Shown piece after piece: positions 9,890 to 41,224 of a stretch of 64,000 nucleotides of DNA (its first letter is position 1; every line of letters starts with the position of its first letter). The DNA is from Sistotremastrum niveocremeum HHB9708 (taxonomy: Eukaryota; Basidiomycota; Agaricomycetes; Sistotremastrales; Sistotremastraceae), in contig KV419405.1 in assembly GCA_001630475.1 (NCBI GenBank), positions 421,396 through 485,395 on the forward strand. The letters run 5' to 3'. A program made the translations under genes and the position numbers. The notes below the pieces were generated by a model. It ran no database searches. It was not told the DNA's origin and saw only the letters and a list, made by a program, of their open reading frames with translations.

Positions 9890-9890
9890 A

Positions 9891-10056
9891 ATAATGGCCT
9901 TTGCGGATCCAGTTTCTCCCATATCCTGAATGATGCCCTGCCAGTGGGCATCATGCCGCATCACAGTAACTGGAGTGTTTCACAACAGCCTCGTTGATGC
10001 ATCGAACATTCAGGATCTCGCTGACTGCTTGCATGCATCGTATCCGAACAAGTCAG
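9891..10056 (-). pseudogene. Relic of GPCR exon 3
   Basis: On the minus strand this matches exon 3 of the intact 7-TM receptor at 15816-17084 and its paralog at 33415. Diagnostic pieces are CysSerAsp followed by MetHis/MetGln, the nucleotides of CSSYCDA, and GIIQDMGETGSA, ending at the conserved exon-3 donor GTGAGT at 9890. A roughly 16-bp insertion around 9945, inside the CDAQGI region, and upstream frameshifts break the frame. No other receptor exon is recognisable in the flanks. It is the decayed remnant of a third receptor copy. Confidence 0.75.
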
Positions 10057-10628
10057 CCACACCTTTTCTGGAGCACTATCAGAAATATTCTCGAGGAGAC
10101 TGGATGCTGGACTGGGACTCGGATATCGGATATCGGACACGGAGACCAGTACGGTCGCCCTCGAGTCTGTAGTAGACTTTGCCCGATTTTTTTTCCCGAG
10201 CTCAGTCTTCGACTTCGATTCCCAGGCCGGTTTCCCCGAGGCCAATCCTCAGGTTCAATTTTTGCGATCCCAAGATCTTCGATCGTAGGTAAGTACGCGT
10301 AGGTAAGATCCGGCAACAAAGGGTTACGTACTACAGTAGTTGTATTCGCCATGCAGCAAAACTGTACGACTTCAGCTTTACGGTACGATCGGCTGTAGGA
10401 GTCTGCATTAACTTTCCGTCGTTCTCTCGCTGTTATATTCTGTGCTGTTAACAAGTTGACAAAAAGGCCGTAATCACGTTCAAAATAGGCAAACGATTCA
10501 AACTCCGCAACGCAAGTTCGCAACTGACAAACTTCATTCAAACTTTGCTCATCGTTCTTGTCATTGTCACAGTGAGTTAAACAGAATAGAATGGCAAATA
10601 TGAGTGTTTTATATGGAGAAATTGACGG

Positions 10629-12231
10629 CTAGACTGCAAAATACACAAATTTATCCGGTCCCAGTTTCTCACAATACTCGTTGGAGCTATGGTTTTTACG
10701 GAACTGACCTGGAGCCAACACGCCGTCATGGCCGATGTCACGATTGACAAAAATCCTTGTGGATCTGTTCAGCGTATCATAAACTGTCCAGTACATAATC
10801 GGAACTCAAGGACACAGTTACCAGTAACTCTGGGAAAGTGTCAGTGATAGTTTCATTTTGATTGCGGGGCTGGCGCTTACGAGGTAACCCGTATTCCACG
10901 AGGTGTTCAATAGAAATGTGTCGCTTGCAAATGCTCACATGTAGACTTGAAATCCAGTTTTGCAACGTCAAACTTATCTTGAAGGTCCGTTCTCAAGCGC
11001 CGATTGACAGTTGCCTGTGCAAAGTACACAGGGGGTGAGACCGGAGGAGTACCAATAGATGTCTTCAGACAATGCAATAATATAACAATCAGGGCATACC
11101 TCATGATAACGCTTCTCAAAAGGGTGTCATTGACACAAACCTTGCAACGGGAGCCATACCAACCTCAAACGTCAACTCCGTCCCCGAGATAACAGGCGTA
11201 TGCAAGACAATGAGCAAGGAACAAGGAACATCTTCTTTCCCGAAAGAGCGCTTGACGTCACAGTATCTGGGATATTGAGTATGTCAGCACTGATAGTCAT
11301 ATACGGAGAGATATACGGAAAGAGTAGGCTGTTGAACGAACCGCATTCCGTCTGATATCGATTTTCTCACGCTCAACGCACTCTCGTCGGTCAAAGTACT
11401 GCGATGTTTCTGAGGTGCCACAATCGGCTCCGATACCTCGAGACGACTCAACGATAGATTGAGTGAGAGGAGCGATAAGGATGCCTTTTAGCGCTAGGGT
11501 CGGTTTAGAAGGGGTTTCTTCATGTCACTGCTATCGACAATGACGATGGCATCGATAGAGGGTTGGTGCAGACAGGAAGAAGAGCCGATAGAAACGGTAC
11601 CAACTACATGACATTCGGAATAGATTCAATTTGAGAGGTAGCAATGTGACGTACGTGTAGCGGTGTTTTAACACCCACCTCACGTGCTCTGGTCTGAAAG
11701 CATGTAAGCTCAATCACCCGGCCACACTTATCACATTGCGGGTTTGTCTGATCAGCAATTTCAATGCCCATACCACTACTGATATAAGAATACGAACCTC
11801 AACGATCTGTTGTTCAGCAGCAGCAGGAGCCTGATGATGCTTTCAGCAGTTGGGAAAATATTTGTCGACGAGCTTCTTGAACGATACACAACGCAGTTGA
11901 AGCACATGTACATGTGAAAGGGAAATAAGAGGGAGTCTATGAGCGGAAGTGGAGCGGTCGACAAACGATGGATGCAAACCTGAAAGCGGGTGAGGCATGG
12001 GCGAGCGCCGCGAGGCAGCGTAATACTCGAGTACTGTTTTCTTGAGTGAGGCCCGGACTGGATCCGCTCTTCTTCGCACAGCATTCTAGCAAGATTATTG
12101 GTGGAAAGCGAGATCAGCATTATCCACCAACGAATTGTCGTCGTCGACATGGTAGCCAGACTTGCTAGGCCAGAATGGTGTCGAGGCACTGACACCGATT
12201 TCAATCTCCGACCCCGACCCCAGACCCACAT
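10629..12231 (-). CDS. Unrecognised multi-exon protein, borders uncertain
   Basis: Several minus-strand segments read like coding exons with GT/AG borders. One around 11480-11340 contains GILIAPLTQSIVESSRGIGA and CVEREKIDIRRNAVR. One around 11265-11160 contains YCDVKRSFGKEDVPC and ends at ELTFE. One around 11070-10935 contains PVYFAQATVNRRLRTDLQDK. The last, about 10790-10629, contains MYWTVYDTLNRSTRIFVNRD and GVLAPGQFRKNHSSNEYC, ending at the TAG 10631-10629. The 5' part (12231-11500) is harder to thread and may be damaged. I do not recognise a family and assign no function. It may be a lineage-specific gene or a decaying one. Confidence 0.4.
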
Positions 12232-12339
12232 TCGGCAGACCGGATTATTGATTATCTACGTCTGTTGGTTTCTCGATGGTCATGCATTCGTTGAGTCAAA
12301 AGAACATTCTGCGTGCTAAGTTTTGATCAGTTTATTCTC

Positions 12340-12615
12340 TCAGTGCCGCAAGCTCGCAATGCCGCGTGCCGTCGCATGGCCGACATGGCCGATCGTTAAT
12401 TTAATTTCATGAAACATCTCGAGAACCGAGACATACCTGAGATTGGAAGCGCCGCCTCTGCTCCAGGAACTTGGTCTCGGTGAATCTACCGTGGGGACAG
12501 AAGTCGAAGGTCCCGAGCCAAAATCAAATCGGAGAAAGTCTACTACAGACTCGAGGGCGACCGTAGACCAGTCATCGATTTCATTGATTGCCAATAGCAG
12601 CTTGCCTGCAGGCAC
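12340..12615 (-). other. Open frame sharing a 31-bp identical segment with 10150-10180
   Basis: A short minus-strand frame contains STVALESVVDFLRFDFG. Its DNA at 12535-12565 is an exact inverted copy of 10150-10180, and weaker similarity continues for about 60 bp. It may be a gene fragment duplicated within the cluster; no function can be given. Confidence 0.35.
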
Positions 12616-12946
12616 ATCGCTCTACCCTTGATCTTGAACCTCTACTGGTCGCCCGTCAGCGGGTGATTTCATGAACATCGAACATTGTATGAGCAACCAA
12701 ATCAAACTTTCTAACTAATGACAAAATATCGCAGGCTTTGGTACTGTGCGCATCTACCTCGATCTGTAACTCGTGCTACTGATCAGTTCAAAATGAAAGA
12801 CAACGCGGAGGTTCTGGGGCCCAATGCCATGTATTCTGGGCTCGCCTTTGAGAGTCGAGCGCCCTGAGATTCATCGCCACCGCACTGGACTCCGTTGACA
12901 GTCATTCTGTCGTTTATCCTGGTTGCGGGTCAGCATTGCTTTACTG

Positions 12947-13884
12947 TCAACCCTGGAGAACAAACCTTGGCGTATGTGCATTGAAAGTCGTCGATAGGCC
13001 GCGAGGGCTTGAAATGGTGATTGGGGTGTTACTAGTTTGTGTTGGGACCGGAGCGGCGGTTGCCCGTGCTGGCCCATTGGTCGCATCTGGTCTCGCGTCT
13101 GTCCTGATCCGAGCTGGCTTAACATCGACAACTTTGCCTTTCGTTTGCCGGTGGCTTTGATTGCGGCGTTGAGGCATATCTCGACGTGTTGGACGCTTCT
13201 CGACAGCACTAAGGGATGACAATGATGCGGGTGGGGTGTGATATTTGCGAGCGTGGGCGTTCAACCCATCCTTTCTCGTGAACCTGATTGAAGATGAGTG
13301 TTGGGCTCATAACACAGGAACGCACTCACTCTGCACCACATTCACACAAGAACTTGGGACCCCCGTGTTTCGAGCGCTCGTGTCTACTGAGCGCACTCCT
13401 GTCTGAGAACGCCGCATCGCACGACTTGCACACTTGATCACGAATGTTGTCACTGATGCGAGCAACGTCAGTACTATGATCAGGTCAAGATCGAAGGACA
13501 TACTGCCTCACGATGCGCCAATGGGTTAACAGCGCCACTTTCTGATGGAAGTCCTGATCACATCCATCGCGTCCGCAAGGATACTGCCTGATCTTGGTCT
13601 GAGCGTATTGCGGCTACGAGGCTGACGTGAAGCTCACTTGGGGCCAGACTCATGAGTACGCAGGTGCCGTTTCACATCGTGAGCTCTGCTGTATGGTTTG
13701 TCGCAGGTCGGGCAAAAATGTGCCTTGTCCTTGGGAGTGCTATATTTCTTCGGCACTCATAAGCACATGAGCTAACGTATTCCAGGGAATGAGGACAGAC
13801 TGCGGCGCGTTTTTTCACTGGGACAGTCTCAGAGCGAGCAGCTTGGACGGCTTTCGCGTATTTCGAAGTTGTGGTAGTGACCAT
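12947..13884 (-). CDS. C2H2-type zinc-finger protein A
   Basis: Probable nuclear DNA-binding protein of about 252 residues in five exons (13884-13801, 13747-13638, 13587-13504, 13473-13330, 13283-12947), all in frame. The N-terminal exon reads MVTTTTSKYAKA and a lysine-rich KKRAA. Fingers: FCPTCDKPYSRAHDVKRHLRTH; YPCGRDGCDQDFHQKVALLTHW; CKSCDAAFSDRSALSRHERSKH; and an atypical one with C-x-C spacing, CECGAEFTRKDGLNAHARKYH. The basic Ser/Pro-rich tail has KGKVVDVKPARI. Close paralog of B (18329) and C (41224). The exon-1 donor is GTCTGT where the paralogs have GTAAGT, so splicing may be weaker. Confidence 0.8.
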
Positions 13885-13970
13885 GATGAAAGAGAAATGT
13901 GATGGTGTACTGCAGGCGATATGACAGTGAGGAGTGGGTTGAAAGCGCGAGAGATATTTTTTGCGAACTT

Positions 13971-14036
13971 ATATAGCGTTTATTGTCCCCTACGCAACAG
14001 TGCCACTATCAACGATACGGGCTCAGATAGGGGGTC
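13971..14036 (-). promoter_or_regulatory. Conserved promoter block of zinc-finger gene A
   Basis: Read on the minus strand, the core resembles GATAGTGGCACTGTTGCGTA followed by ACAATAAACG and the TATA-like CTATATAAGT, about 90 bp before the ATG at 13884. The same block precedes genes B and C, and a weaker version precedes D. Conservation beyond that of nearby spacer suggests a real core promoter and operator. Confidence 0.65.
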
Positions 14037-14660
14037 AATCGGGACTACTACGAATGTAGCCGCGACAAAACAATTGCTCCGCCGCGTTGAACAATAGTCA
14101 GCCTTGGTACATGCTTCTAGTCGATTGCGCGGACTACATGAGGGAAAGAGGCGTTTTGTGCCCCATTTTATTCTGTCCGATGGGCCCACTGGCATGCGCT
14201 GTATTGAAGAATAATGGTTCTCGGTTTTCTCGGCGATCTCTCGTGTTTGATGTGATCGCGTGTCTTTGACTCATGCTGCTTCGTACGACTACTAGTAGTC
14301 TGTCCAAAGCAAGCTCTGTCAATGCGAGCCGATAGGAGAAAGCGTCCGAAGCCACTCATTTCAAGTTACAAATCATTTCTGTCCTCATCCTTAAAACGTT
14401 CAAAAGGATGACATCTGCTCTCTTTACATTCTCCAAGCTGTACATGGGACCGCCTATGGTCTAACTCGATAAAGCTTGATCCCACGAATTCCACCACTGA
14501 GGGTCGGCCCGCTGTCGCGAGAACTCTCTCTGATGGGTTCATTCTCATATAGTCAATCGCTTGTTATCGGAGCAGCTCGACAGGAGGCACGGAGCGGGTG
14601 ATTCGGGCGATGTGGTTCACGATGATGGAAGCAGACTCCTCCCGAAACCCCAACCTAGAG

Positions 14661-15815
14661 GCGTGCCCGACATCACCTGTATATATGGCTCGCAGCCGCT
14701 TGCTAGATGCCTAACATCTGAATTGTCTCAGATCGCGGTCAAAACTCGAAACGTCGAAGTATTTCGTCTGGACCAGCGACAATCACAAGCCGAACGATGT
14801 TGCATTCGCCAACTCTGTAGCCTAGTCTGTATGATGTTGCGTGGCCTTATCTGAGCTGAGGTAGTCCTTCAGTCTGCAAAGATCCCCATGAGAATGCAAT
14901 AATCGTGGTGGAATTACGATGTGAGAGACAAGGAATGAGCAAAGCGAAATAGCAAAGCAGCCTTTCAGAGTAACAATGCAGGACAAAGCCACTGGTTGCC
15001 ACGAAGAGCAGGCGTGAGAGCGAGTGATGACGAGAACGTAGCCAGGGGGAATCGCAACGAGTCTACGACGATGCAACAGAATCAATATCAACGAACACTA
15101 GATTTTCGCGGCTTGGTCTGAACTGTGCGGGCCAGTTGCCAACCAGAACTGATTTGCCGTGGTCAGTCTGGTCCAGAAGCCAAAAGAATATACTTATGGT
15201 GAACAACAGGAACGTAAGCTCCACCATGAGTCTGCCACAGTAAACCATGTACCAGCAAAGACAATGCGGGGAAAGTCCAAGAGAACCAACTTCAAGTTGA
15301 ATTTTCTTGACACGAGCCTACAAAGACTGCCCATTGAAACGCCGCCATTCGTCACCTTCGAATTCTTACTGCTAGTCAATTCATGGTGATCCAACGACTC
15401 TTCATTCTGGAGCCGTAGGTTTTTCAGGTACATAGTGGTCCGGTATCCAAAATCGACGGTTGCGAAAGGATCGGGTTATGACAAGACAATCGGAGTTTGC
15501 CGACGGAAGCAAAATTCCGATCTTTGGCAGCGACATCCCTCGACCAACAGTCCATCGATTGCTCGAGGGTGGCTCGAGCACAGCAAAAACAATATGGGAC
15601 GCACTTCTTGAGAAATTCAATCCTGTGCGCTCAACAAGAACATGGGCGCATCCTATGCTAGGCTATGAAGCCAGATTTCCAGTTGACGCATCGCTGGCAC
15701 AGCCCTGGCCCTGAGTGTGCCTGAACATAGAGCTTGAATTCCGAGACGAGGGGGAAACAGTCGGGACATAAGAACCTTGACTCGCGTGACACTGTAGCTC
15801 ACCGCAGCTTCCAAC
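14661..15815. other. Spacer inside the inverted duplication, no confident gene
   Basis: An open frame at 15460-15714 on the plus strand (about 84 codons) has no recognisable domain. The rest is the presumed upstream region of the receptor gene. Confidence 0.35.
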
Positions 15816-17084
15816 ATGTCATCTACAAGCGGTCCAATTATACGCGCTGAGGATGAATGTCAAGTTACAGAGCTCACGCCGGGGCAGCGGATAGGATTGA
15901 CGGTACGTATTCACTTCAACTTTTAACTTATCCGACGTCTTAATTTCCTGCAGATATCCGTAGAGGCTGCATTGCTTTCTTTGTTCGCTGTCTTGCTAGT
16001 CCTCGGTTCTATCGGAGTGGTGGTCTGTCGAAGGCGTTGGAGGCACCGGAAAGGGTTTCGTCTTGTTACTGGTCCACTCGATGTCTATGTGGTACGTATT
16101 GTCCGCTACACTTCAGATTCACTTCTAATGCTCCGGGATAGTTGTCGCTGATTTGCTCGGATATGATGCAAGCGATCGGCGGGATCCTGAACATTCGGTG
16201 GATTAACGAGGGTGTCGTCAAATGCTCCAGCTACTGTGATGCCCAGGGCATCATTCAGAATATGGGAGAGACTGGTTCTGCTATGGCCACAATTGTGAGT
16301 CATGGCCATCTGCGAAATACTTCAACACTAATATTGTTTCCGTTAGGCAATCGCCTTGAACACATTCGTCGTCATATTCTTCCGCAAGCAGCCCGTAAAG
16401 CTTTGGGCTGCGGTTCTTATTGCATCATCTATCTGGGGATTCTGTGTTTTCTTTCCTGTCATTGGCTTCCTTGTTTTCCGACACAGTTCAAGCCCCTTCC
16501 TTGCACCCACACCGTAAGTTCATCTTCACCATAAAGTCACTATTTTCCTAAAACAGTTTGGAACAGGTTCTGTTAGTTCACATGTCACGCGCGTTGATAA
16601 CTTGATCACTGATTGATTTAACAGGGTGTTGGATTGGAAGTCACTATGCCGGCGACCGTATTGGCGGTGAATATCTTTGGCTGTGGATCGCAGCACTGGA
16701 GTCCTTTGTACTCTACGTGCCCCTTTTCTTCATTTTATTGCAAGGGACTGAAGCGGGTGGACGGAAATGGTGGCAATTGATGTTCCTCTCCAACACAGAT
16801 AGTGAAGATGAGGTTGATGATGTCCGAGCAGCCAGTTTTAAGATGCTCTTGTGAGTAGATGTGTCAACGTTGTGTCCATTATACTGATCATTTCTATCAG
16901 ATTCCCTTTCACATATTCCGTCCTTGTTGTGCCTTTATCAGTTTGCCGATGGGTACTGTTCCGCCATCCCCATGCTGTCCCTTCGCAGGCTACCTTTGCT
17001 GTCTATTCTCTATTTTCTTTGATGGGCTTGGTTGACGTTCTTCTTCTGATCAACATGCGTCGGGATCTTTATGTGATTGGTTAG
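15816..17084 (+). CDS. Seven-transmembrane receptor (Git3/cAMP-receptor-like GPCR), copy 2
   Basis: Plasma-membrane receptor of the basidiomycete family usually described as Git3- or cAMP-receptor-like; ligand unknown. Exons: 15816-15902, 15954-16091, 16142-16294, 16347-16513, a 5-nt microexon 16567-16571, 16625-16850 and 16901-17084, continuous in frame. Seven hydrophobic segments are visible, from VEAALLSLFAVLLVLG (TM1) through CSDMMQAIGGILNIRW (TM2) to LMGLVDVLLLINM (TM7). Conserved pieces: LTPGQRIGLT before TM1, CDAQGIIQNMGETGSA before TM3, and GGEYLWLWI leading TM5. The protein stops eight residues after TM7 (RRDLYVIG), so it has almost no cytoplasmic tail. It sits between the arms of an inverted duplication, with zinc-finger gene B 1.2 kb downstream on the same strand. 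Confidence 0.85.
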
Positions 17085-18180
17085 TTGTCTTTCAGTGTGA
17101 CGATTTGATAGCTACTTTGAGATACAGATTACAATACAATTTTGTTAATGACTAAACAGATGAGAAATTTTCTGTCTTCCTCTCATTCCGTTCTTGGCAT
17201 CGAGCAAAACAAAGTCTTCAGATCAAACAAACCGTTGTTTGGTCCATAGCTTCTCGACAAGGGTTCCACTTGCCAATCCAGCCGATCCTCGCCCTGCTTA
17301 AACTGGAAGTAACACGACCTTCTGTTGGCTTACTCCACGATGCGATGACAGAGACTAACCTAAGGCAAGCAAACGTCCGACAGGAAACCACGAGCGAAGC
17401 TCGTATCAGTCATCCGTGTATGACCAGGTCCGGGAGAAGGCAGAAAAACTCTCATGTTGAAGACTTATCCAGCCGGGGTAGGGACGTTAGCCATGCCTGG
17501 TGGTTGGGATTCTGCGAAGTTCCCCCTACTTCCGTCTTCGTGTTCCACACCGCCCTAATTACCCGCTCCGTGCCTCCTGTCGAGCAGCTCCGATAACAGT
17601 CAGATTGCCTTTTAAATACGACTGACAGAAGACCGGACTTCATACGATAACATGCAATTGATCGCTCGAAAATGGGCCCATCGGAGTTCTTGCGAGAACG
17701 GGCCGAATCTCAGTGGTGAAACTTGAGGAATTAAGCTGTATCGAGCTAGACTATAAGTGGTTCCGCGCACAGCTTAAAAAATGTGAAGAGAGACGATGCC
17801 AATGTTTTTTACGCCACTGAGGATACGGGCAGGAATGACTTTAAATTCGAAAGTGAGTGACTTTGAACGCATCCTGCTATCCACTCGCATTGACGGACCC
17901 TGATGAGAGTGGAGGATCAGGAAACAGACCGAGTCAGAAAAGTGCAATCGCCGCAAACACGAGAGATCGCCGAGAAACCCGAAAGTGGTTCATTCCGTCT
18001 TTAATATTGCACATGCTGATGGGCCCATCGAGCAGAACGAAAAGGGGCAAATAAACGCGTGTTTCCCTCCTGTTGTCCCCGCAATCGACTAGAAGCTTAA
18101 GCAGGTACCAAGGGTGTTTATTGTTCAACGCGTCGGAGCAATTGTTTTGTAGTGGTTGTGTGCGTGGTAGCCCCGATTGA

Positions 18181-18255
18181 CCCCCTGTCTGAGTCTGTAT
18201 TGTTGATAGTGGCACTGTTGCGTAGGGCACAATAAACGCTACATAAGTTCGCAAA
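18181..18255 (+). promoter_or_regulatory. Conserved promoter block of zinc-finger gene B
   Basis: The block runs from CCCCCTGTCTGAGTC through TTGATAGTGGCACTGTTGCG to ACAATAAACGCTACATAAGT and ends about 75 bp before the ATG at 18329. It is the same block as that upstream of genes A and C. Here the TATA-like element is CTACATAAGT instead of CTATATAAGT. Confidence 0.65.
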
Positions 18256-18328
18256 AATCGTCTCGTCCCTTCAACCCACTCCCCACTGTCATATCGCCTT
18301 CAACACATTATCACCTTTCTCATTCATC

Positions 18329-19270
18329 ATGGTCACGACCACAACCTCAAAATACGCCAAAGCCACTCAAGCTGCTCGCCCTCAGGCCGTCCCGGTGAAA
18401 AAACGCGCCGCCGTAAGTCCTCATATCCTGGCAGACGTTCGAAAATGTGCTCATGAGTCCGGCAGAAATATAGCACTCCCCATGACAAAGCAACTTTTTG
18501 TCCGATCTGCTCCAAACCATATGGCAGGAAACATGACATGAAACGGCACCTGCGTACTCATGACTCGGGGCCCAAGTAAGCTTCACGTCGGCCTCGTAAC
18601 CGCAATACGCTCAGACCAAGATCAGGCAGTATCCTTGCGGACGCGATGGATGTGATCAGGACTTCCATCAGAAAGTGGCACTGCTCACTCATTGGCGCAT
18701 AGTGAAGCAGTATGTCCTCGACTCACAAACCTGATCGTATCATTAACGCAGCTCGTATTAGCGATAATATTCGTGACCAAGTGTGCAAGTCCTGCGATGC
18801 GGCGTTCTCGGACAAGAGTGCGCTCAGTAGACACGAGCGCTCGAAACACGGGGGTCCCAAGCTCGTATGTGTATGTGGTACAGAGTGAGTGCGATCCTGT
18901 GTCATAAGACCAGTACTCATGATCGATCAGATTCACGAGAAAGGATGGGTTGAACGCCCACACTCGCAAATACCACATCTCACCCGCATCATCGTCATCC
19001 CCAAGTGCTGTCAAGAAACTTCCAACACCTCGCACTGTGCCTCAGCGTCCCAAGCAAAGCCACCGGAAAGCGAAAGGCAAAGTTGCCGATGTTAAGCCAG
19101 TTCGGATCAGGGCAGACGCGACACCACGCACGAGCATTGGGCCAGCACGGGAAACCGTCGCTCCGGTCCCAACACAAACCGCTAACACCCAATCCACCAT
19201 TTCAAGCCCTCGCGGCCGCCCCGCGACCCTCGATAGTGATGTACCAAGGTTTGTTCTCCGAGGTCGATAA
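18329..19270 (+). CDS. C2H2-type zinc-finger protein B
   Basis: Paralog of A with the same five-exon plan: 18329-18412, 18466-18575, 18626-18709, 18762-18884, 18931-19270; about 246 residues. Fingers: FCPICSKPYGRKHDMKRHLRTH, YPCGRDGCDQDFHQKVALLTHW, CKSCDAAFSDKSALSRHERSKH, and the C-x-C finger CVCGTEFTRKDGLNAHTRKYH. The acceptor used by A and C for exon 4 (..AG before T) is mutated here to AT. The next in-frame acceptor (TTAG at 18758-18761) shortens the exon by 21 nt and deletes seven residues between fingers 2 and 3 without breaking any finger. Likely a nuclear DNA-binding protein; target unknown. Confidence 0.8.
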
Positions 19271-19450
19271 GAAAATCGACTTATGCTCATCCCCTTCCAG
19301 GACAACCGATGGAAAACTAGCGAACGGAGTCCACCTCGGCGATCACGAATCCCAGGTATCTGGGCAATCCACAATATCCTGCGTGACTACAGGATACATG
19401 GCGTTAGGACCTAGAACTTCGGCGCTATCCTTCATACTGAATCAATGAAC

Positions 19451-20327
19451 CGAGTGGTAAAACTGGATGCACTTCCCTTCCAGACCTAAGACATCACTTC
19501 CCCAATAAATAGGATATCAAGATGATCCCAATCTGCTTGAAAAAAATGCCAGTGGGAGGGAGGCGTGCACTGATCGGTGGAATGTAACCAGAATGAATGA
19601 AACCCGAATTCAATTAGAAAGTCGTGCTAGCGTTGGACAGTCTTGCTGAGGACTATGATGGTGACCTCCATTCGAGACACAACGTTATTTCATGTAAGAG
19701 ATTTCAGTCTGAGCATCGAGCAATCTGTCTGCTGGCAAGTCGCGATTGGCAATCGATAACAATCGATGGCTGACCGTGTGGAAAGTTGAGGGCTTCGCAC
19801 TCCGATATCCGACATCCGAAGTTCGGACTTCAGCTACCTTACGACCGTCTATTCGGAAAATGGCCATTTGGACCGAATGATGCAAAGCAATGCAGATCGT
19901 TTCCGCAGTCCACCTATATCATAGCGCCTGCAACTTTTCAATCTAGGCACAACTAGCTTCTTCCTGCTTCTGCCCGTTCTTTCGGGATGATAATCACATA
20001 CAAATATGGGCTTGACGTCGACGTTGAAGATAACAAGAATCGTCGATGCTGGATTCTATATCAATAATTGAATTTGGGGTCCATGTTTGCATTGGAATGG
20101 GCATAACGTCGAACACTTCCTTGCTGCGGGTCCTGCTGCGGTGGAGGAGTTCGGGCACTTGGCAACATATTCGAGGGTCGCGCTTATTTGCCGAGGTGGT
20201 TCGGGCGGCGCGCGGGGTTCGTTGAGGTATTTATAGTGTCATAGCCATTTCTTCGCGGCTTCCAAAGCGACGACTCAGGTTCACCTCCTGTGCGTGCTGG
20301 GCCACTTCTCGTGCTTGTCGTGCGTTC
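19451..20327. other. Intergenic stretch
   Basis: No gene seen. A TATA-like TATTTATAG at about 20228 lies upstream of the next gene. Confidence 0.4.
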
Positions 20328-21687
20328 GTGAAGGGACAGTCAAGGCCCACGGACATAAGATCGGGATACTCCGAACGTTCGACTTGGGCAGCGAAGTGCC
20401 GAATGACGCTAACCCAAACTCGAAAAAACTTCTTTGCAGTAATACTGATCGTCCTCTTCTTGATCTTAATCGGTCAGCTCAGGCATGCCCTTCTCTTTGA
20501 TGTGCCAGCCACGCCGTTGCGTTCTCCAACGTCGTTGGCCGACTCAACGACGACCATCGTCCAAAACGGGTCATCCGACGACGCGCTCGACGTTATTAGA
20601 CGCCGAAATTCCATCCTGCTCGTCACCGCATACTTTCCCTTGACCAAATCGAAACATGACGACTCGGAATACAAACTTTGGCTGGAGCACTTTCTTCCTC
20701 ACATCCAAACTCCCATATATTTCTATACATCCTCTGCTTACGCCCCACTGATACGAGAATTGAGGGGAGGTCTCCCCATTTTCATCGACACCACCTTCTC
20801 TTCACCGTTCGATATACCTCCATTGCAAGGTCGCCATGAGCATTACGAGTCACTGCACAAAATGGACCCAGAGCGAGATCACCACAGTCCTGATTTGTAT
20901 GCCGTTTGGAATGCCAAACCATGGTTTCTCGCTAACGGCCTACAAAACTATCCTCTATCGCCATGGCACGCGTTTTCTTTCGCATTCTGGATCGATGCTG
21001 GGAGCTTTAGGTCTCAGCATTCGTACAGAGACTGGCCAGACGCTAAACGCGTGCAGGACGCGTGGGATCAGCACATGTTGAACAGACCCGAGACCGAAAA
21101 TCATAATGAAATTTTGTTCTGGCCCATCGATGAACTTCCTCAGAAGTTCCGTTCAAACTGGACAGATGAAGACGGCCCCTTTGACATGGGCGACGGACAT
21201 TCGTACAGTATTGGTATGTTATTTTGTAGCCTGTGAAGGACAATATCTGATGGTCGTTCTCCCAGGTTCGTTCTTTGGGGGCCAGCTGGACGGTATCAGC
21301 TGGTATTCGAAACAGTATTATCATGCTCTCAACCACTACTTCAACGAAGGGCATTTCGTCGGCAAAGACCAGACGGTCATCAATGCCATCTTCATGCTTT
21401 TTCCATCCCATTTTATTTCCATCTGGCCTTCCAATCCCGAGTATGCTCCCTTGGGAGCATGTGGAAACCGATGGTATTACCATCAATTTTTTCTCGCTTC
21501 TGACAGCGAACGATCGAATATGAGGTCGATATGGCGAAGCCAATGGCTGACCAATTTGTGGACGCATGGTCTTGAAGCCTTTATTCAGTGCCGTGCGGTT
21601 TCCAGCGAAGATATGACAAGCTTGCTGCGCAAGCGATTCGGGTCAGATTGGAATTCGCCACCTATCCAACCTTTCCTTGGGGACTAG
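20328..21687 (+). CDS. Type II membrane protein with HtrL/YibB-like glycosyltransferase-type domain
   Basis: Two exons, 20328-21213 and 21266-21687, joined in phase 1, give 435 residues, or 410 if the ATG at 20403 (MTLTQTRKNFF) is used. Near the N-terminus there is one hydrophobic segment, FFAVILIVLFLILIGQL, typical of a type II signal anchor in the Golgi/ER. The lumenal part opens with ILLVTAYFPLTKSKHDDSEY and LEHFLPHIQTPIYFYTS, resembling the HtrL/YibB family. A FWIDAGSFR motif may be the metal/sugar-nucleotide site, and DGISWYSKQYYHALNHY and GKDQTVINAIF follow, as in GT-A-like folds. Function is inferred only as a possible sugar transferase; the substrate is unknown. Confidence 0.8.
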
Positions 21688-22129
21688 GAGAATGAAAGAA
21701 GTTTATCTATCACTGTAGCATATCTCGATTTTCATTTCATATTAGGCCCACTCAATTCTACACAGGCAGCGGTTCCAGTGTTCATAAAGAATCCTCGCGC
21801 GAGGTATATTTTTTGGATTCTTGCAGGATTAAAAAAGAATACTTCTAACCGAATTATTTCGAAGATCCATTTCAAAGGATATTTAAAGAATCCCATTTTT
21901 AATATTTTACCATCAAATAATCTGAAATAATCCTTGCGGTCCGTTCCCGAATTGTCCAAATCTAGAACGCTCTTAGGAGTTACAGCCGATATCTTTGTAA
22001 TGCTCTCGGTGATAACGGAAGAATAGTAGATTGATGATATGCTGACTAATACATTTGCTTTACGCGCTATCGTCCTTTCTGGGTCTCATCGATCTCATTG
22101 GCCTCGCGATCCTTGTTAATAACGCTGCT

Positions 22130-24739: not shown

Positions 24740-25279
24740 TAGAGTTCCAAGGTCCAGTCCACGTGACTGGTCGTATTGGGCAACCGGACCGAAGTCGCGA
24801 CTGGACTGCAGTTGCCAGTTGCCTGGNNNNNNNNNNNNNNNNNNNNNNNNNNNNNNNNNNNNNNNNNNNNNNNNNNNNNNNNNNNNNNNNNNNNNNNNNN
24901 NNNNNNNNNNNNNNNNNNNNNNNNNNNNNNNNNNNNNNNNNNNNNNNNNNNNNNNNNNNNNNNNNNNNNNNNNNNNNNNNNNNNNNNNNNNNNNNNNNNN
25001 NNNNNNNNNNNNNNNNNNNNNNNNNNNNNNNNNNNNNNNNNNNNNNNNNNNNNNNNNNNNNNNNNNNNNNNNNNNNNNNNNNNNNNNNNNNNNNNNNNNN
25101 NNNNNNNNNNNNNNNNNNNNNNNNNNNNNNNTGACTGGTCATTTGATGACTGGTTGCCGGACCGCAACTGCAGTTGCAGTTGCCAGTCACAGCAAATTTG
25201 GGATTTGGCAACCGGTCGCAGTTGCCAGTCACGGGGAATTTTGGAAAAAGTCCAGTCGTGACCGGACTTTGGAACTCTA
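24740..25279. mobile_element. hAT-like MITE with 8-bp target duplication (contains gap)
   Basis: Terminal inverted repeats TAGAGTTCCAAGGTCCAGT (left) and TAGAGTTCCAAAGTCCGGT (right, reversed) have two mismatches in 19. The flanking duplication ATACTGAG lies at 24732-24739 and 25280-25287. An 8-bp duplication with ends starting TAGAG fits the hAT superfamily. The visible interior is packed with CAGTTGCC, GACTGG and CCGGTCA words in both orientations. No coding capacity is visible, but the middle is unknown (N). Confidence 0.85.
24827..25131. other. Assembly gap (run of N)
   Basis: A 305-bp run of N inside the MITE. The word-rich sequence on both sides probably defeated assembly; the true length may differ. 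Confidence 0.95.
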
Positions 25280-30239: not shown

Positions 30240-31824
30240 ATGTCCAGATTCGCCTGCGGGCTGATTTTTCTGGTCGTCCTATCTCAGCTGGTCATTCAAT
30301 GCCTTGCACAAGCCTCAGAGAACTTTGCATGGGGATTTTCTCCTGTGAGTTATCGATATCATCATCCTCGTCGATTTTTACAGATGACCCTTTGGTAGCC
30401 TCAGATGGCTCAGCTCACAGAATGCGATGACTTCCCCGTTATGATCGTCTCTCATTCCGACGACTTTCAACCCCAACCTCCCTTCTACATAATGGCATAT
30501 GAAGTCAGCGGCATAGCAACTTGTCAAGAAATTGGAATGGACCCCGATAATCTTGTCTGGCAAGTCGATCATGCCACAGGTAGGGCTGGATGTAACCTAT
30601 TTGAAAGGTTGACATTCATTCATTTTTCCAGGATCACAACTTCTTTTGGAGATGGTGGATGCGAATGGCGTGTCTGGTGGTGTTGCACCCGCCCTGTATA
30701 CCATTCAAGGTACGTCCCTCAGTGTATGCAAGTTCGCGTACAATCTCATTTTTAGTGCAGACGGATCATCATCTTCATGCCATAGCAATGTTATCACATC
30801 TCCGGTGCAGATCAGCGCCGACGTCACTGCTATCAATTCATGCGATCCTTTGTTACTGTCCTTTGGAGGCGGCACCCTTCCGTATTCTGTTACTATTGTC
30901 ACGTCTCTAGGTGCTGCCATCACCAATCTGACGCTCGGAGATGAGGATAATGCATATAACTGGATAGACCGTGCAGATCCTGACGGCATCCTGATCGGTA
31001 TGTGTTATATTCGGCCGTTCTAACATTTTGCTGAACCGAACCTAGCGACCGTCCATGACGCGTAAGTCTCGTCGAATCTTGCCCGTAGTCCTACGATCTC
31101 AAGCTTTCTGGACGACAGAAACGGCCAGTATGCGGTGGGCACAGGTGTCATAGGTCTATCCGGTGTTACAGGAGCCACGTGCGGGAGCGACACCTCTTCT
31201 TCCGGCCAGTTAGCGAACATTTCTCCAGGAGCATCACTGCCCAATCCTGCCACGGCGTCGGCTCTTAGTCCACCCTCCTCATCCCCTCCCCCCGAGCAAA
31301 CGTCTGACACGGAAACTCCGACTCCGCCCTCGTCTACCTCGAATTTATCAACCTCTACCACGTCAAGTGCCACCAGTTCTGCGACCGCTGATTCTTCGAC
31401 CACTGATTCTTCGACAACCGATTCTTCGGCCGCTACTACTCCGACCACCACTTCTTCGAACACTACTTCTTCTACATCAATCCCTGCAACGCCACCCTCG
31501 CATACATCACTCCTCGCCTCGACCGCGTCTTCTCCTTCCGCGGTCTCGACCACGAGCAGTTCGTCCAAAAGTCACGCAGGCGCCATTGCCGGGGGTGTGA
31601 TTGCTGGTCTTGTCGCACTTCTTCTCCTGCTCTTCTACCTTTATCGTAGACGAGAAAGACGACGTGATGGTCCAGCCATGGTGGAGCTCGACATACCCAA
31701 TGACCAGCCCACGACTTTTTCTGTGTCTCCCCCTGCGAGACCTCTTTCCGGAAATTCCTCAGTCACGATAAGGGTGAATCCTGTACCTCATGGTGCTCCT
31801 CCCCCGGTGTACGGCAGAAAGTGA
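30240..31824 (+). CDS. Secreted mucin-like single-pass membrane protein
   Basis: Six exons (30240-30344, 30399-30579, 30632-30709, 30761-30997, a 16-nt exon 31046-31061, 31119-31824) join in frame into 440 residues. The N-terminal signal peptide reads MSRFACGLIFLVVLSQLVIQ. An ectodomain of about 200 residues follows with CDDFPVMIVS, NLTLGDEDNAYNWIDRAD and two or more Cys, then a stretch of about 100 residues nearly all Ser, Thr, Pro and Ala (likely O-mannosylated). The transmembrane helix GGVIAGLVALLLLLFYLYRR is followed by a basic stop-transfer RRRERRR and a short cytoplasmic tail. The layout matches wall-sensor-like proteins, but the ectodomain family is not recognised; ligand and role are unknown. 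Confidence 0.82.
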
Positions 31825-33414
31825 AGGTCGGCGGTATGACATTGACGAAGTTCGTGGCTAATAAGCCTCAGCTTCAGGATTTGTCCAATGCGTGTTTGTC
31901 TAGATGGCTGGGCCGATGACTTGAGCGTGGCTCTTTTCTCCGACGATGGCGCTATGCAACATCGAAGGTCGGAAGTGCACCAGCTTTCCACTTGAGCATG
32001 TACAAACGCCGAAGAAGTCCGAACTGTCATGACCCTATACAAGCGAAACCTCTCATTCGACCTGTTCTAGTTTGCTTGATCGACGAAAGTGATCTCAGCC
32101 GCCTGTCTCGCCCAGTTCTCTGACTGAAGCATTTTTTCGCCATTCAAGGTAGTGGTGCCTGACTCGTCAGAATAGCGCAACAACTGAACTCCTGTTCGAT
32201 CGAATGAGTGCACCGCCGATAGCTTTGGTTGCTATGACCATTTGACCCGAAAAATGGCATTTGTCTGCCCCATCGATACGGAGTGTGAATTGCCAGCGTT
32301 CAACGGCTCCTTATACTATGGTAGGCAGGTTCTGCAAATGTTTTGACCTTTCGGCTGATACTACCCTCTCAACGTCGAATTTTCTTTCGGAATTTTCTGG
32401 AGTAGACGTGAATGACTCTCAAGAATCGTTCTTGAATTTATGATATTTTTAGGATAGCAGTGTGGACTGGCGGAGGCGTGAGACTGAGGGGGTGTCGCGT
32501 GAACACAGTTCTGCAAAAAGTGTCACGCGTGACAAAATCGCGCGAGATAATCATCCTGCGCCAACCTCGCCGACAAGCGAGACGCGTTGGCGGAGTTTCA
32601 CGGCCAGTCCCTGTCACGCTTTCAAGGCCTGCCCACTTAGGAGACTTTTACGAGCTCAAATACCTTCACTCATGGGCTTCTAAATTACGATACAGATATC
32701 ATAGGCTCTCTCAGAAAGTTTGAAAGAAATCTGAGAACTTTTGATGTCAGAAAATGCGAATGACGCGCTTTGCAGAACTCCGATTCTCGTCCATCCGCGT
32801 ACTTATCACGGGTGGCCGCTTCAGTTCTGGTCCGATCGCTGCCAAACTTCGTATACATTTAGAATAGATATGTACCGTATCAAGAAAAAAATCGGACTAC
32901 AGTCAGCCCAAAATTCGGCCCGTTATGCCCACATTTGCAGAACTGGTTCCATTTGCACATTGCGCCTCCCATAGTAATCTCGATCCCTTCGGACCACGAT
33001 TGAAACGGAACAGGGTTGACTGTTAATAGAAAGCCCCTGCATCAGACGTCAGCCCAATCGTTACCTTGCTGATTCCCCAGTATCGCGAGGCTATGCATAT
33101 GCATGCACCTGATCCATACAATGAACCCTGAGAGTCCGTTCATTTCCCAGATGTTCTGCATCTGTCCACGAGTGATCCTATTCTGTATATTCGAGTCGCT
33201 CAAGATATCACGCCGTTGCTCGATCTCGCGCGGGGTTTCGCAACTTTCTACGTGATTTATTTCATTTGTCCCTGTCATACCCTCCCAGAGCGAGGTCTGA
33301 ACTCCGGCGGGGTTGCATGTATGCACCTCTGATAAAGATTTTTTGATCCTATAATATGCGCAGAATGTTACCCACTGCAGTGTGCCCCCGTCAATGACCT
33401 TCGAAAAGCTTGCA
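31825..33414. other. Intergenic stretch
   Basis: No gene I can support. A 141-codon frame antisense to the next gene's first exon (33467-33042) lacks recognisable features. Confidence 0.4.
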
Positions 33415-34695
33415 ATGCGTTCCGCGTCCGATGACGACACTGACAGTGCCGAGGGATGTCTACTCACCCTGACTCCCGGACAGAGGATAGGCTTGACAGT
33501 GGGCTCCTTTCCCGAGCCCGCCGATTATTTGTTAATATTATTAGATCTCTGTTGAAGCAGCTCTTCTCTCTTTGTTTGCAGTTCTCCTCGTTCTTGGTTA
33601 TATCGGAGTGGCGGCTCTTCGAGCTCATTGGAGACGTCGACAAGGAGTCCGCTTGATCACCAATCCTATTGATATCTACGTGGTATGTTTTCCAGACAAA
33701 CTTCTGGTCAGCAATTACGATTTACGCCTTTACCGCAGATATCGTTGATCTGCTCCGATCTGATGCAAGCCCTCGGAGGAATATTGAACATCAGATGGGT
33801 AAATGATGGAGCCATCACTTGTTCCAGATATTGTGCTGCTCAGGGAATTCTCGAAAACACCGGAGAAACTGCTTCAGCAATGGCCACCATTGTACGCCAC
33901 TCTGAGGATCGGAGCCTGTTAATAATCATACTCACGATGTCAAGGCCATCGCCTTGAACACATTCGTAGTGATTGGCTTCCGAAAACAACCCACCAGGCT
34001 TTGGGTCGCAATTCTTGTTGCAGCGGCTATCTGGGGATTCAGCCTATTTTTTCCGATCATCGCATACCTTATCTTCCGACACAGTCCGAACCCATTTCTC
34101 GCTCCCACTCCGTAAGTTACCATATATCACAGAATTATTTCTTTATCCTCAGCTTTCCAAATAGATTTTGTGAGAGCCATTCATTCTTTCGCCATACAGA
34201 CTTGAGTTTATTGGTTTCTCTAGGGTGTTGGGTCGGAAGCCATCATACTCGAGAGCGAATAGGCGGCGAATACGTCTGGCTTTGGATCGCGGCTTTGGGG
34301 TCATTTGTCCTATACGTCCCCCTTTTCTTTATCTTGTTACGAGGAGCGGAGGCAAATAATCGGAGATGGTGGCAATTGATATTTCTATCAAACACAGATA
34401 GCAAGGAAGCGACGGATGATATACGAGCAGCAAGCTTCAAGATGCTCCTGTAAGTCGTGTTATTTTTACGAACGCCATCCTTCTGACACATTCCATGTCA
34501 AGATTTCCTTTCACGTACTCCGCGCTCGTCGTTCCTTTGTCGGTTTGTCGATGGATACTTTTCCATGATCACGATAATCCCAGTGCAGTGCCTTCTTGGG
34601 CAACATTTGCGGTCATCTCTTTATTCTATCTGATGGGACTAGTGGACGTCCTTCTCCTGATTAACTTGAGAAGGGATCTATATGTCATCGGATAA
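33415..34695 (+). CDS. Seven-transmembrane receptor (Git3/cAMP-receptor-like GPCR), copy 3
   Basis: Paralog of the receptor at 15816 with the same exon sizes: 33415-33498, 33545-33682 (138 nt in both), 33739-33891 (153), 33945-34111 (167), microexon 34165-34169 (5), 34224-34449 (226) and 34503-34695. Shared motifs include LTPGQRIGLT, VEAALLSLFAVLLVLG, CSDLMQALGGILNIRW, FWCWVGSHH across the microexon, GGEYVWLWIAAL and the end LLLINLRRDLYVIG. The N-terminus is short and acidic (ASDDDTDSAEG), with no signal peptide. The cytoplasmic tail is almost absent. Zinc-finger gene D follows 0.7 kb downstream on the same strand, echoing the GPCR-zinc-finger order at 15.8-19.3 kb. Confidence 0.85.
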
Positions 34696-35256
34696 TTATA
34701 ACAAAAGGCCATTCTTTTATGTCTACATCAGCGACACGGAATGTCTATTGAATGGGTCCTACAAACTACTACCATGAACTGTGCGAACGAGATATCAAAA
34801 CACAGCTGCTCTGATCCTTGCGCGCGCGGAGTGCTGAGCCGTCGCGTAGTCCTAAACCGCATCCCACCACTAACCTCGCAATCCAAGCGGTCATGATGAA
34901 ACAATATTTATCTCTGGAGGCACAATGCAACACTCGACAATTCAGGCACCAAACAAAATATACCGACGAGCTTGCCAAGGCCCTCTACTATCAAAGCGTC
35001 CGTCACTGCGTTCATTGATGTCCAGATAAGCAAACTCTTGAACAAAACATAGGTCCGTGAACTTTAGGCGGAATTAGGCCGACTGGTCATTGTCAGAGCC
35101 GGCGAATGAATACGCCAGATCCACAAATCAAAGAAAACGCGTGTCTACTGCATTTCAGGGATCATACTCCACGATCGAGGGTCGCTATTGTTCTCTGTGA
35201 CTGAAAAAAGGTCCTGTTATTATTTTCTATGTTACTACCGGCGCGGGTTTATTGAC

Positions 35257-35320
35257 CCCCGATCGGCCCCTATCCGGTTTCGTATTGTCGTAACAGTGGC
35301 ATTCTGCGCCATATAATGAA
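35257..35320 (+). promoter_or_regulatory. Diverged promoter block of zinc-finger gene D
   Basis: CCCCCGATC, then CGTATTGTCGTAACAGTGGC and CATATAATG, lie about 90-150 bp before the ATG at 35412. It retains the C-run, GTATTGT and AGTGGCA of the block before genes A, B and C, but is clearly more diverged. Confidence 0.45.
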
Positions 35321-35411
35321 AGTAATTGCGACGCTTGTCGCCCCAACCTACTTCCTTCTATCATCGCGGTCATCGTATCATCGCTTTGAACCCAACCAAC
35401 CTGATTTAAAA

Positions 35412-36488
35412 ATGCCATACGCTGCCAAACGATCTCGAGGCCTTGCCACTCCTTCTGCCGCTCTTGCTGCCACTCCGCCAGCTCCCAATAAACGCGCCAA
35501 GGTGTGCTCAAATTCTTCTCTATGTCAATGTTTCAAAGAACCAAATCTCTCATACAACTTATGTCTTGACAGAAAGGAAGCACGCCTGAATCAGTAGGAT
35601 GGAAATGTCCTATTTGTGCTACGGTGCTCAATAGAGAGAAGGATTCAGGCCGCCACCTGAGAACGCACGATCCTGACGCTGAGTGAGCCGCCCACTTTTT
35701 TAGCTCGAATGAATGTATTGACAAGAACAACAGAAAGTATCCTTGCGAGATGGGTTGCATCGATAAATGGTTCACACAGGAGGCTTCCAGGAATGTTCAT
35801 TATAAATCCTTGGCACAGTATGTTGATCGTCTCTCCTCAGTAGATCCTTTGTATTGACTATAGTCACTTCATAGTAATAAATCGCGCCCGCACGGTTGCA
35901 AATACTGCAACAAAGGGTTCACCACGTCTCGTGTCCTCGACCGACACGTTGACGAGATACACGGTCCGGGTAGGTACCGATTCTATTTGTGTGGGTGTGG
36001 GGCAAGGTGAGATCGTTGTACCTAATGTTTTCGGAATGTATCTCACATCGGTCAGATTCAAACGGATTGAGTCTTGGCATAAACACCGGAAAACGGTCCA
36101 TGCTCGTGAAACCGTTGTCCGCCCAGACCCTCAATATAAACGGGACGTCCTCACACTAGCAAGATCTCCTACTGATGAAGGCAACAACGATCGGGACGAT
36201 CGGCCTCGAGGATTGGCTGCCGAGGAGCAGGTAGATGTCCATCCATATTGGATGCGGACGGAAACTATGCCTTCGGTGGACAGTCCTCCAGTAGGCTTCG
36301 TGACTCCCGTTCACATCCAACAAGAGAACATCAACACCCGGTCTACGAATTTCCGTGACCAATCTGCAACCGATCAGACCTCTAGGTCTGTGAGCCCAAT
36401 GGCCATCGACGAGAAGAGCATCGCTAGGTTCGCGCCTCGGAAATATCCGTCTCATGTTCGACTTGCTTATGTGCCTATAGAAAAATGA
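35412..36488 (+). CDS. C2H2-type zinc-finger protein D (diverged paralog)
   Basis: Exon 1 begins MPYAAKRSRGLATPSAA and ends in a basic KRAK, as in genes A-C. Further exons carry KCPICATVLNREKDSGRHLRTH (finger 1), YPCEMGCIDKWFTQEASRNVH (finger 2), GCKYCNKGFTTSRVLDRHVDEIH (finger 3), and a fourth with C-x-C spacing, CGCGARFKRIESWHKHRKTVH, split by an intron exactly where A-C have theirs. The 3' exon adds about 130 residues without a known domain (RDVLTLARSPTDEGNNDRDD.., ending YVPIEK). Intron positions and phases match the family, which argues for common descent despite low sequence identity. Probable nuclear DNA-binding protein. Confidence 0.75.
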
Positions 36489-37590
36489 GAAGCGAATGCT
36501 CGAGATCAAGATCAAGATCATTATCACCTGTTAGTACCCTTCAGAGATCGGAAAGCCCGACACCGGCGAACGACAGCTGGGACGCGCGTCCAGTCACCAG
36601 GCCGCCGAGGACCGGAGCTCTATCAGAGATTTTGAACTGACTTATGTAGCAAGCAGTACGAGTTGAAAGCCTTTCAATCTTGCAATGGGTCTGAAATTAA
36701 GTCAAAACATGTACACTTGCCGCGAATTCATACAATGCTCTTAGAAAGACCGGCTTTAGCAATCGTCGATATTCTGATCTGAGATTTGACTGACGGATAG
36801 AAACAAAGAGACTGTAGTCAAAAGAGAAACGCGCACCGATCGACATCCGATAACTGATGAATGCGATGTTGAATGCAGGAAACGAAAGAGGAATTTATTT
36901 GGTGATGTTGTGTCCTCCGGCAAAGTCAGCCGGCGATTGTCCGGCGATTGAGATTGATATCATTGAATATAATCGAGTCCGCTCCTTCGTCGTGCACAGT
37001 AACTCGCAGATAGGATCGCAAGACAATACCTACCAGCAAGTGTGGTTCAGATACCGAATGTCTAGCTAACCTGCCAGTCCGGTACCCCGGAATTCTTTTC
37101 CTTATATCCGAGATCTCATTCTGGTGTCGAGCGGCTCGAGCCAGAGCTTCCCAAGAACATGTATTGCAACTTCGACACAACTGAACGTATAGTCTCGGCC
37201 TCACGTCTAGAAATGATGATAATGCGTAGATAGCTTCAAAACGGACCAGACTTTTTGCGAACGAGACCGGAGTCCCAGTTTATCGACTCCGGTCGGATGC
37301 ACACTGAGCACTTAGCCGAGGGTCACTGTACGAATATTTGCGGTGCATTTCTCGAAATAGTCACAATCAAGTATGATTACGGACGTCCAAAAGACGTGTT
37401 CCAAGCTCCAATTGAGCCGAAGAAAAAAGCTGGGCGGTTAGTTTCCAACAAGTGACGTATCCGGTTTCGGTCACCGCCCGGAAGCCGCACATGACGTCAA
37501 TGCTCGTGTGAGGCTATATAAAAGCGGGACCGTTTGACGGATCTTCATCAACCAAGTCACATCCATCCATCGCAAAGCAACTCTCCCACC
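36489..37590 (+). promoter_or_regulatory. Intergenic region with CRE and TATA box of the RTC3-like gene
   Basis: A perfect CRE palindrome TGACGTCA lies at 37492-37499, a half-site GTGACGTA at about 37452, and a strong TATA box TATATAAA at 37515-37522, some 70 bp before the ATG at 37591. The rest of the stretch shows no gene. Confidence 0.6.
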
Positions 37591-38189
37591 ATGGCCCAAA
37601 TTCACAAAGTCGTATACAAGCCCGATACCCAAAGTACCGATGAGTACATCGTATTCGTAAACCAGGCCGAGGTGAGCATCATAAACTGATCCTTTTCCGA
37701 TGATCGCGAAATGCTAATCCAAATCCGTCTGTTTTCAGTATAAGAAATGGAAAGATGGAGGTAAGCTATCATGTAGCTCATCTTCGTGAACATCGGCTCA
37801 TCGGCCTATTTTTCAGACACGTAATGATTTGCCTGTATCACTTTCGCAGATGTTAACGATCTGCGCCCCTAGCTCCATCCCACTCGCGCTGATTGTTGAT
37901 GGTGAGTTGACAGAACTTCATTGGCACCTACGATGTTTCCTGATCACTCCTGACAGCCTTCGACATCTTCCACTCGGGTCAGGGCGCCCAAGGACACTTG
38001 GGCCGAATCTCAAAGCAAACACTGGAAACCGTGTTCGGGACGAAGCATGAGGATGAGGCCGTGAAGGTCGTGCTTGAGAAAGGCACCATCCAAGCTTCCG
38101 AAGGTGTTCAGAAATCGGGGACGAGTAGCAAGAATGACTCCCACGGCAGCCAGTTTGTCGATACCCGTGGTGGAGGCTTGAGAGGATAG
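37591..38189 (+). CDS. RTC3: RTC3/YHR087W-like protein with SBDS N-terminal domain
   Basis: Small one-domain protein related to the SBDS N-terminal fold, linked in yeast to RNA metabolism and stress. Five exons, 37591-37671, 37739-37760, a 4-nt microexon 37817-37820 (ACAC), 37873-37901 and 37957-38189, sum to 369 nt, or 122 residues. Key stretches are KVVYKPDTQSTDEYIVFVN, YKKWKDG, SIPLALIVDAFDIFHSGQGA and GHLGRISKQTLETVFGTKHE. Skipping the 4-nt exon would shift the frame before SIPLA, so it is needed. The CRE and TATA upstream suit an inducible gene. The Gly/Ser-rich tail (KSGTSSKNDSHG) is lineage-variable. Confidence 0.88.
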
Positions 38190-38453
38190 GCATTGGTGTT
38201 CTCGTTGCCCCTTTTCGCACTCGCACTGCTATCCGTACCATCACATATCGCAAGCATGAAGTCAATTTGAGCCATCGAGGTCGTTCTATGCGCCTCGATG
38301 AAAGCATAATGTATCACCAGTAGTTTAATCAAATCACATCCAGTGAAGCGATCTATCGTTTGAGTCGTGAAATTAGTACGGGAAAGGTCAACAAACAACT
38401 ACCAAATGCTAAAAGGAAAATATGAGGGAACCGAAGCAGCAGAAGCCTTGAGT

Positions 38454-39493
38454 CTAAGCAACTGGGTGAGGGGTGTTGAACAGTCGATCGCCCTAATGAG
38501 CGCGAGGTCAGAGATAATCCTGGTGACACGTTGAAGTATAGAACACACCGTATCTCCCAGACCAGGTGAGATGAGACCATTCGGTGTGAGGTGAGGGTCA
38601 ACAGCTGCAGTCCATATCTATTGCGATAGGTTATCAACGGTAATTCTCCAACGTAAGGAAATGCGACACACCTCAAGCTCCGGGAACTCATCCTGCACAT
38701 GGTCCAGACCAGGTTTGCTTCCCAAGACAGCAAGGAGCTTAATGTTCTTGACTGGAATACCCCAATCAATGATCATCGTCAAAGCAGCCTGATAGCAGTT
38801 CATCAGCATCGCACGCAATCCGCATACAAGAGACGTACGCATGCAGTGCCTCCAGTCGCGATCAAAGGGTCAAGAAGGAAGACGGTGTCGACAGTAGGGG
38901 AGGAAGGAAGCTTGGAATAATCTGGGGTAGGATAAGAATGGCGATAGATCAATAATCCGAATTCAACACGTACATTCTACGGGTTGGAGGCTGATCTTCT
39001 CTCTGAATAATCCGATGTGATGAACATGCGCATCTCTGAGTTACGTCGCGTGAATTAAATGAGTTGGGGATTGCAGTGCTGAGGAACGACGACGTACGGG
39101 AACATTCTGAGCATCGACTCCGTCAAGCCAAGTCCTGCACGTAGAATAGGCACGAGTCCGATCCGAGGTTTGATTTTAGATCCTACAAACGGTCCCACAG
39201 GCGTTTGCTAAGTTGCATGAATCGTTACGAATGCTCGACACTGATAGCAAGCTGACGACGAACCCCATCGAATGTAGATTCTTCGAGCTCTCGCGTGGCC
39301 TCTACTGCAAGGATAGTACCAATATCATTAATTCCCTATTTCAAATGGGTCAGATCAGGCGTAATCGCTATACAGCTTGCTTCATTGGGGGTCAGTGACT
39401 TACGGATCTGAATTCAGCAGACGATGTAGTCGAATCTCGCAAGATGGAAAGTTTGGCGTTGACGAGAGGATGTTTCAGAACATTGATAGGCAT
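38454..39493 (-). CDS. FUR1: Uracil phosphoribosyltransferase
   Basis: Pyrimidine salvage enzyme converting uracil and PRPP into UMP in the cytosol. Seven exons give about 218 residues, the yeast Fur1 length. The N-terminus MPINVLKHPLVNAKLSILRD starts at 39493, with an in-frame stop just upstream. Then GINDIGTILAVEATRELEES, GSKIKPRIGLVPILRAGLG (PRPP-loop region), HHIGLFREKISLQPVEYYSK, and the PRPP-binding LLDPLIATGGTAC. The uracil-binding tail NGLISPGLGDTGDRLFNT ends at 38456. The final introns at about 38524 and 38620 keep GLGDT-GDRLF and ELE-IWTAAVDPHLTP in frame. Confidence 0.93.
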
Positions 39494-40131
39494 TATTTCC
39501 TAATGATTGAGAGGGAAATCTTGCGAATACGTTGAGCGTACGGGACGATACGAACAGGTGGTTTACAACGTCGAGCCGATTTGAGCCGAGTTGCGGCTAA
39601 GTTGGGCGCTTGACATGCCGGAACGGTCACGGAGATACGGACATTGCGTCCGACGCACCTCCAGTGTTCCGCCATGATCTGTCCGATGGGTACCTGCTAT
39701 CGTTCGCATATCCTGTAGATCCAGCTCGCAGAAATACCAGGGTTTGAAATCATGTCCCCACTCCAAGTCCATAAGTAGGTGCTCTGGCTGTGCGATTCTC
39801 ATGGATCTCCATGGGAAACTTGAAACTTGAAACCTCATTTGAGAAGGGCTCATATCCACAGACCGCATAGCAGCTTTCTTGCTATTTCATGCTCAAGTAC
39901 GGTCACTACACTATCAATATCTATATGAAAGGTACAAAGCCCATCGTCATCAATCCACCGTGGTCTACTGATTTTCATATCCTGAACAGGTCGCGCTTGT
40001 TCCAATGCTATATTTGCTGAAGTCGCAGCTGTCTTAGGTTCCCAAGGCAGGCGTACCTAGCTTCACCGTCTCCTTTTCCGCTGCTCATTGGTTCAAGATA
40101 AAGGATAGTGCCGAGGTTCTGGGTCCCAACA
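39494..40131. other. Intergenic stretch
   Basis: No gene supported. The 3' flank of zinc-finger gene C (around 40090-40150, GAGGTTCTGGGTCCCAA) is a third copy of the flank found after genes A and B. Confidence 0.45.
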
Positions 40132-41224
40132 TCATATATCCTGCGGTCTCAGGGAGCGTTGTCGACAAATCACAGTGTTGATGTGGTCTCTCTTCTGGTG
40201 ATCTAGTGTTTGGAATGGCTCCAACATTTTTTGCAGTGGATTTGCTGCGGGTTGCCCTAGAAGAAGCTTAGTAAATCCAATTCTCCGTGAAGCGCGCAAA
40301 GCCAACCTCGGTACATGCGAGCTGCGCGTGATGAGTTGGCCGCGAGGGCTTGCAATGGTGTTTTGGGTGTCTATAGGTTGTTTTGGGACCGGAGCGACGG
40401 TTGCCCGTGCTGGCCCATTGGCTGTATCTGGCGTCGCGTCTGTCCCGATTCGATCTGGATTGACATCGATAAACTTACCTTTTGCTTGCCGATGGTTATG
40501 CTTGCGGGGCTGAGGAACCCTACGGGGTCTGGATTGCTTCTTGGTGATGGTGACTGTCCGGGATGGCGGAATGGTGCCTGGCGCGTGGATTTTCTGATAA
40601 TGTACCATTAATCGATCCTTTCTTGTGAATCTAATCGGTTCTGTAAGGTTGTGCATAAGACATAATATTACACTCACTGTGCCCCGCACTCGCAAACAAA
40701 CTTGGAGTCACCGTGCTTCGTGCGCTCATGTCTACTCAACGCACTCCTGTCCGAGAACGCCGCATCGCACAACTTGCAAACTTGGTCCTTGATGTTATCG
40801 CTGATGCGAGCAACGTCAATACTACGAGCAGGTGAAGAAGTGAAGGACATACTGCTTCACTATGCGCCAGTGGGTTAATAATGCCACTTTCTGATGGAAG
40901 TCCTGGTCACATCCATCGCGTCCACAGGGATACTTCCTGATCTTGCTGTGAGTGTATCACGACGATGCGGCTGACGTGCAGCTTACTTGGGGCCAGAGCC
41001 ATGAGTAGGCAGGTGCCTTTTCACATCATGAGCTCTGCTGTATGCTTTGTTGCAGATCGGGCAAAAAAATGCTTTGTCGTGGGGAGTGCTATGTTTCTTC
41101 CGGACTCATGAGCACATTTGCGAACCTCTTCAAAATATGGACTTACAGCGGCGCGTTTCTTCAAAGCCTGAGAGCCGCGAGTCTGGGTGACTTTAGCGTA
41201 CTTCGAAGTTGTGGTGGTGACCAT
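40132..41224 (-). CDS. C2H2-type zinc-finger protein C
   Basis: Third close paralog of A and B. The first exon (from 41224) reads MVTTTTSKYAKVTQ and KKRAA. Fingers: FCPICNKAYSRAHDVKRHLPTH; YPCGRDGCDQDFHQKVALLTHW; CKLCDAAFSDRSALSRHERTKH; and the C-x-C finger CECGAQFTRKDRLMVHYQKIH, whose exon starts at 40630 using the acceptor CGATTAG. The tail repeats the A/B pattern (KGKFIDVNPDRI, NGPARATVAPVP) but misses the stop used by A and B and runs about 60 residues further to 40132. The LRTH of finger 1 is LPTH here, which may loosen helix packing. Confidence 0.78.

Follow-up and report, generated by a model that had tools for sequence, protein, structure and literature searches.

We analyzed a 64,000-nucleotide stretch of the Sistotremastrum niveocremeum HHB9708 genome (contig KV419405.1, positions 421,396 to 485,395; hereafter the window) in which genes for seven-transmembrane (7-TM) receptors are intermixed with a family of C2H2 zinc-finger (ZF) genes. 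A preliminary description had counted two intact receptors, a third reduced to one exon and four ZF genes, and our analysis confirms this count. The intact receptor genes, R2 (15816..17084, plus strand, 319 aa) and R3 (33394..34695, plus strand, 328 aa), both have seven exons and identical intron positions. R1 (9883..10078, minus strand) is a relic that retains part of exon 3, matching exon 3 of R2 at 73% by blastn, and its frame is broken, with two tblastn pieces each in a different frame. The four ZF genes lie at 12783..13884 (minus), 18329..19448 (plus), 35412..36640 (plus) and 40085..41224 (minus). Twice the order is receptor then ZF gene on the same strand, with R2 followed by the gene at 18329 and R3 by the gene at 35412.

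Both intact receptor genes contain a 5-nt exon (16567-16571 in R2, 34165-34169 in R3) that is required for the reading frame and is flanked by introns of ~50 nt. With the R2 protein as query, a custom spliced aligner recovered this microexon in R3 and also found it in the relatives C10a and C10b (C10 site, C10:473447-473451); all four close receptors retain it, and automatic gene finders may overlook it. C10a matches R2 at 67% and C10b at 52%, and more distant kin (C4, C41, C25 and C12_372) stand at 26-30%, with two further C12_372-like receptor genes at C12:310.4-311.7k and C12:313.2-314.3k.

The receptors are of the GPCR type, judged by sequence, with coupling to a G protein predicted, and lie near but outside curated families. 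A 19-residue Kyte-Doolittle scan, used here in place of a topology predictor, gives seven hydropathy peaks in each of R2, R3, C10a and C10b, and a profile built from eight receptor kin and compared with PDB sequences matched LPA receptor 5 best (E 6e-5), followed by NPFF1 (6e-4) and CXCR3 (0.0015). The family shares its seven hydrophobic segments with the Git3/GPR1-type glucose receptors and the Dicty_CAR-like receptors (PF11710, PF11970, PF05462), and R2 aligns to both Git3 and Dicty_CAR at E 0.007. However, R2 falls under both curated cut-offs, with 16.7 bits for Git3 (PF11710; cut-off 24.2) and 15.9 bits for Dicty_CAR (PF05462; cut-off 21), and R3 and C10b match neither. Two cousins, C41 (C41:219.5k, L036; 24.4) and C4 (C4:137.5-138.5k, L029; 21.1), exceed the Dicty_CAR cut-off, and C4 also exceeds that of GPR_Gpa2_C. 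These matches sit oddly with the statement in PMC12842992 that class 5 (cAMP-receptor-like) receptors are absent from Basidiomycota, although a Pfam match and the class of that paper are different tests. The receptors described here resemble the STE3-type pheromone receptors of the B mating-type loci, also 7-TM receptors in local multiples in Agaricomycetes, but Pfam hits at E up to 1 for R2, R3 and their six aligned kin include none to STE3. Section 3.1 of PMC12842992 describes class 2 receptors as abundant in Agaricomycetes.

The ZF genes of the window each have six exons and encode four fingers and a C-terminus of the form PRTxALSxILN, which reads ALSFVLN in two relatives on C34. C2H2 fingers score above the curated cut-off, with zf-C2H2 detected in all eight members scanned, including those at 12783 and 18329. 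They are therefore C2H2 proteins, for which DNA binding and a transcriptional effect are predicted. Modelled kin elsewhere in the genome are C34a, C34b, C2a, C2b and C12_329, and one more gene, on C25 at 287k, is represented solely by exon matches; weaker C2H2 hits (on C31, C16, C77, C49, C7, C32 and others) were left out of the family. No family member was found when the ZF alignment was compared with viral contigs and R2 with prokaryote genome contigs. On C12, the window's own contig, a span of ~62 kb also includes three receptors from a cousin subfamily together with a single ZF cousin (310-314k, 329k and 372k); 315.6k-328k lies outside the DNA read.

How did this arrangement arise? Two of the ZF genes belong to an inverted duplication whose arms, 12787..14634 (minus) and 17526..19441 (plus), match at 78.5% over 1.8 kb plus a 73-bp piece at 88%, and R2 sits between them. 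The preliminary description had proposed that the pair, or one side of it, is locally amplified; recent amplification is indeed present but confined to the ZF side, and we see no recent copying of the receptor, alone or with a ZF gene as a unit. According to PMC12295980, some Agaricomycotina have C2H2 genes in tandem copies (Volvariella volvacea 23%, Pleurotus ostreatus 14%), so there is nothing unusual in the ZF amplification itself, and in its zf-C2H2 domains and local duplicates the family resembles other fungal C2H2 transcription-factor families.

A receptor gene beside a transcription-factor gene is easily taken for a signalling module, and the preliminary description had suggested that the two work together as sensor and regulator. 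If selection held such pairs together, they might be expected at other loci of the same genome. Nine ZF queries against 84.8 kb at off-window receptor loci (C10a 40 kb, C10b 20 kb, C4 10 kb, C12:310k 5.8 kb, and 3 kb each at C41, C25 and C12_372) gave nothing at E up to 0.1, and ten receptor queries against 92.3 kb at off-window ZF loci (C34:183.0-205.5k and 230.0-256.0k; C2:73.0-105.3k, which reaches just ~0.8 kb past C2b on one side; C25:283-292k, with 1192 N; and 2.5 kb at C12_329) gave nothing better than E 0.26. As a positive control, for each of the seven receptor stretches a query drawn from a different locus gave a hit at E 4e-17 or better; with C12_372-like kin removed, the weakest was C12_372 itself (L038, E 1.7e-4). 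In the flanks read, the two close receptors outside the window are thus unpaired, as are five of the six off-window ZF loci. The exception is a receptor cousin on C12 that ends at 314341; C12_329 begins ~14.6 kb further on, with the two genes on the same strand. Under random placement of 7 to 13 off-window receptor loci (the larger number counting the candidates C4:383k, C48, C23, C75, C21 and C42, used only here) and four off-window ZF clusters, the probability that one pair comes as close as 15-20 kb is 0.02-0.06; this distance was chosen after the co-location was seen. Among the papers listed in literature searches, none concerned a fungal GPCR-C2H2 gene pair, as judged from titles and abstract openings. 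A selected sensor-regulator module can point to the two adjacencies in the window, a matter of position, and to this loose third co-location; against it stand the mostly unpaired loci, the restriction of recent amplification to the ZF side and the lack of any promoter signature that we could find common to receptor and ZF genes. We therefore regard it as very improbable, and the preliminary interpretation holds only in part.

The promoters of the ZF genes tell a different story. A promoter word is common to all nine modelled ZF paralogs (the C25 gene being outside this comparison), and six of the nine carry a composite site, CCCCTRTCYG...AGTGGC...TATA, that occurs nowhere else in the genome. 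In the window the corresponding short segments lie 5' of each ZF gene, at 14002..14033 (minus), 18182..18213 (plus), 35267..35300 (plus) and 41347..41378 (minus). The coding parts of these paralogs are far diverged, with synonymous sites near saturation between the deep window and C34 lineages, and that the signature was kept despite this drift is more surprising than the mixing of receptors and ZF genes. The shared words could also have no dedicated regulatory role, being the usual core-promoter DNA of the fungus or having stayed alike through gene conversion, an explanation we consider somewhat less likely than not. For a site retained over such divergence and private to the ZF genes, the simplest explanation would be a factor dedicated to the family, and the ZF family itself would be the obvious candidate. 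One could go further and propose a private, self-recognizing circuit in which members bind their own composite promoter, each paralog regulates its own gene as well as those of its sisters, new copies carry the wiring with them and neighboring receptors serve as input or target. A 15-mer upstream of R2 (15452..15466, plus), with exact copies elsewhere only upstream of C34a and C34b, might be cited in its favor; its three genomic sites are not significant against controls, and we think this circuit unlikely.

Elsewhere in the window, 4045-5000 holds 2.1 tandem copies of a 451-bp unit (85% matches; self-match 84.5%) and 24827-25131 is 305 N. The 10 kb directly past the window end (C12:485396-495395, L031) is all N, so a further family member there would be missed.

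The age of the duplications, the same-genome synteny and the promoter evidence together argue for two separate histories: the receptor and ZF families multiplied largely separately and are now intermixed, although a receptor and a ZF gene may have been copied together in one ancient event. By homology, the receptors would most likely be surface sensors that signal via a G protein, and the ZF proteins would most likely be nuclear regulators, with each family working independently. As a receptor-regulator pair the locus is ordinary; what is modestly interesting is the promoter signature private to the ZF genes. A composite site shared by six paralogs amid near-saturated synonymous divergence makes this family a compact system in which to study how promoters evolve and, if the ZF proteins do bind the site, would clearly exemplify regulators keeping their own wiring through duplication.
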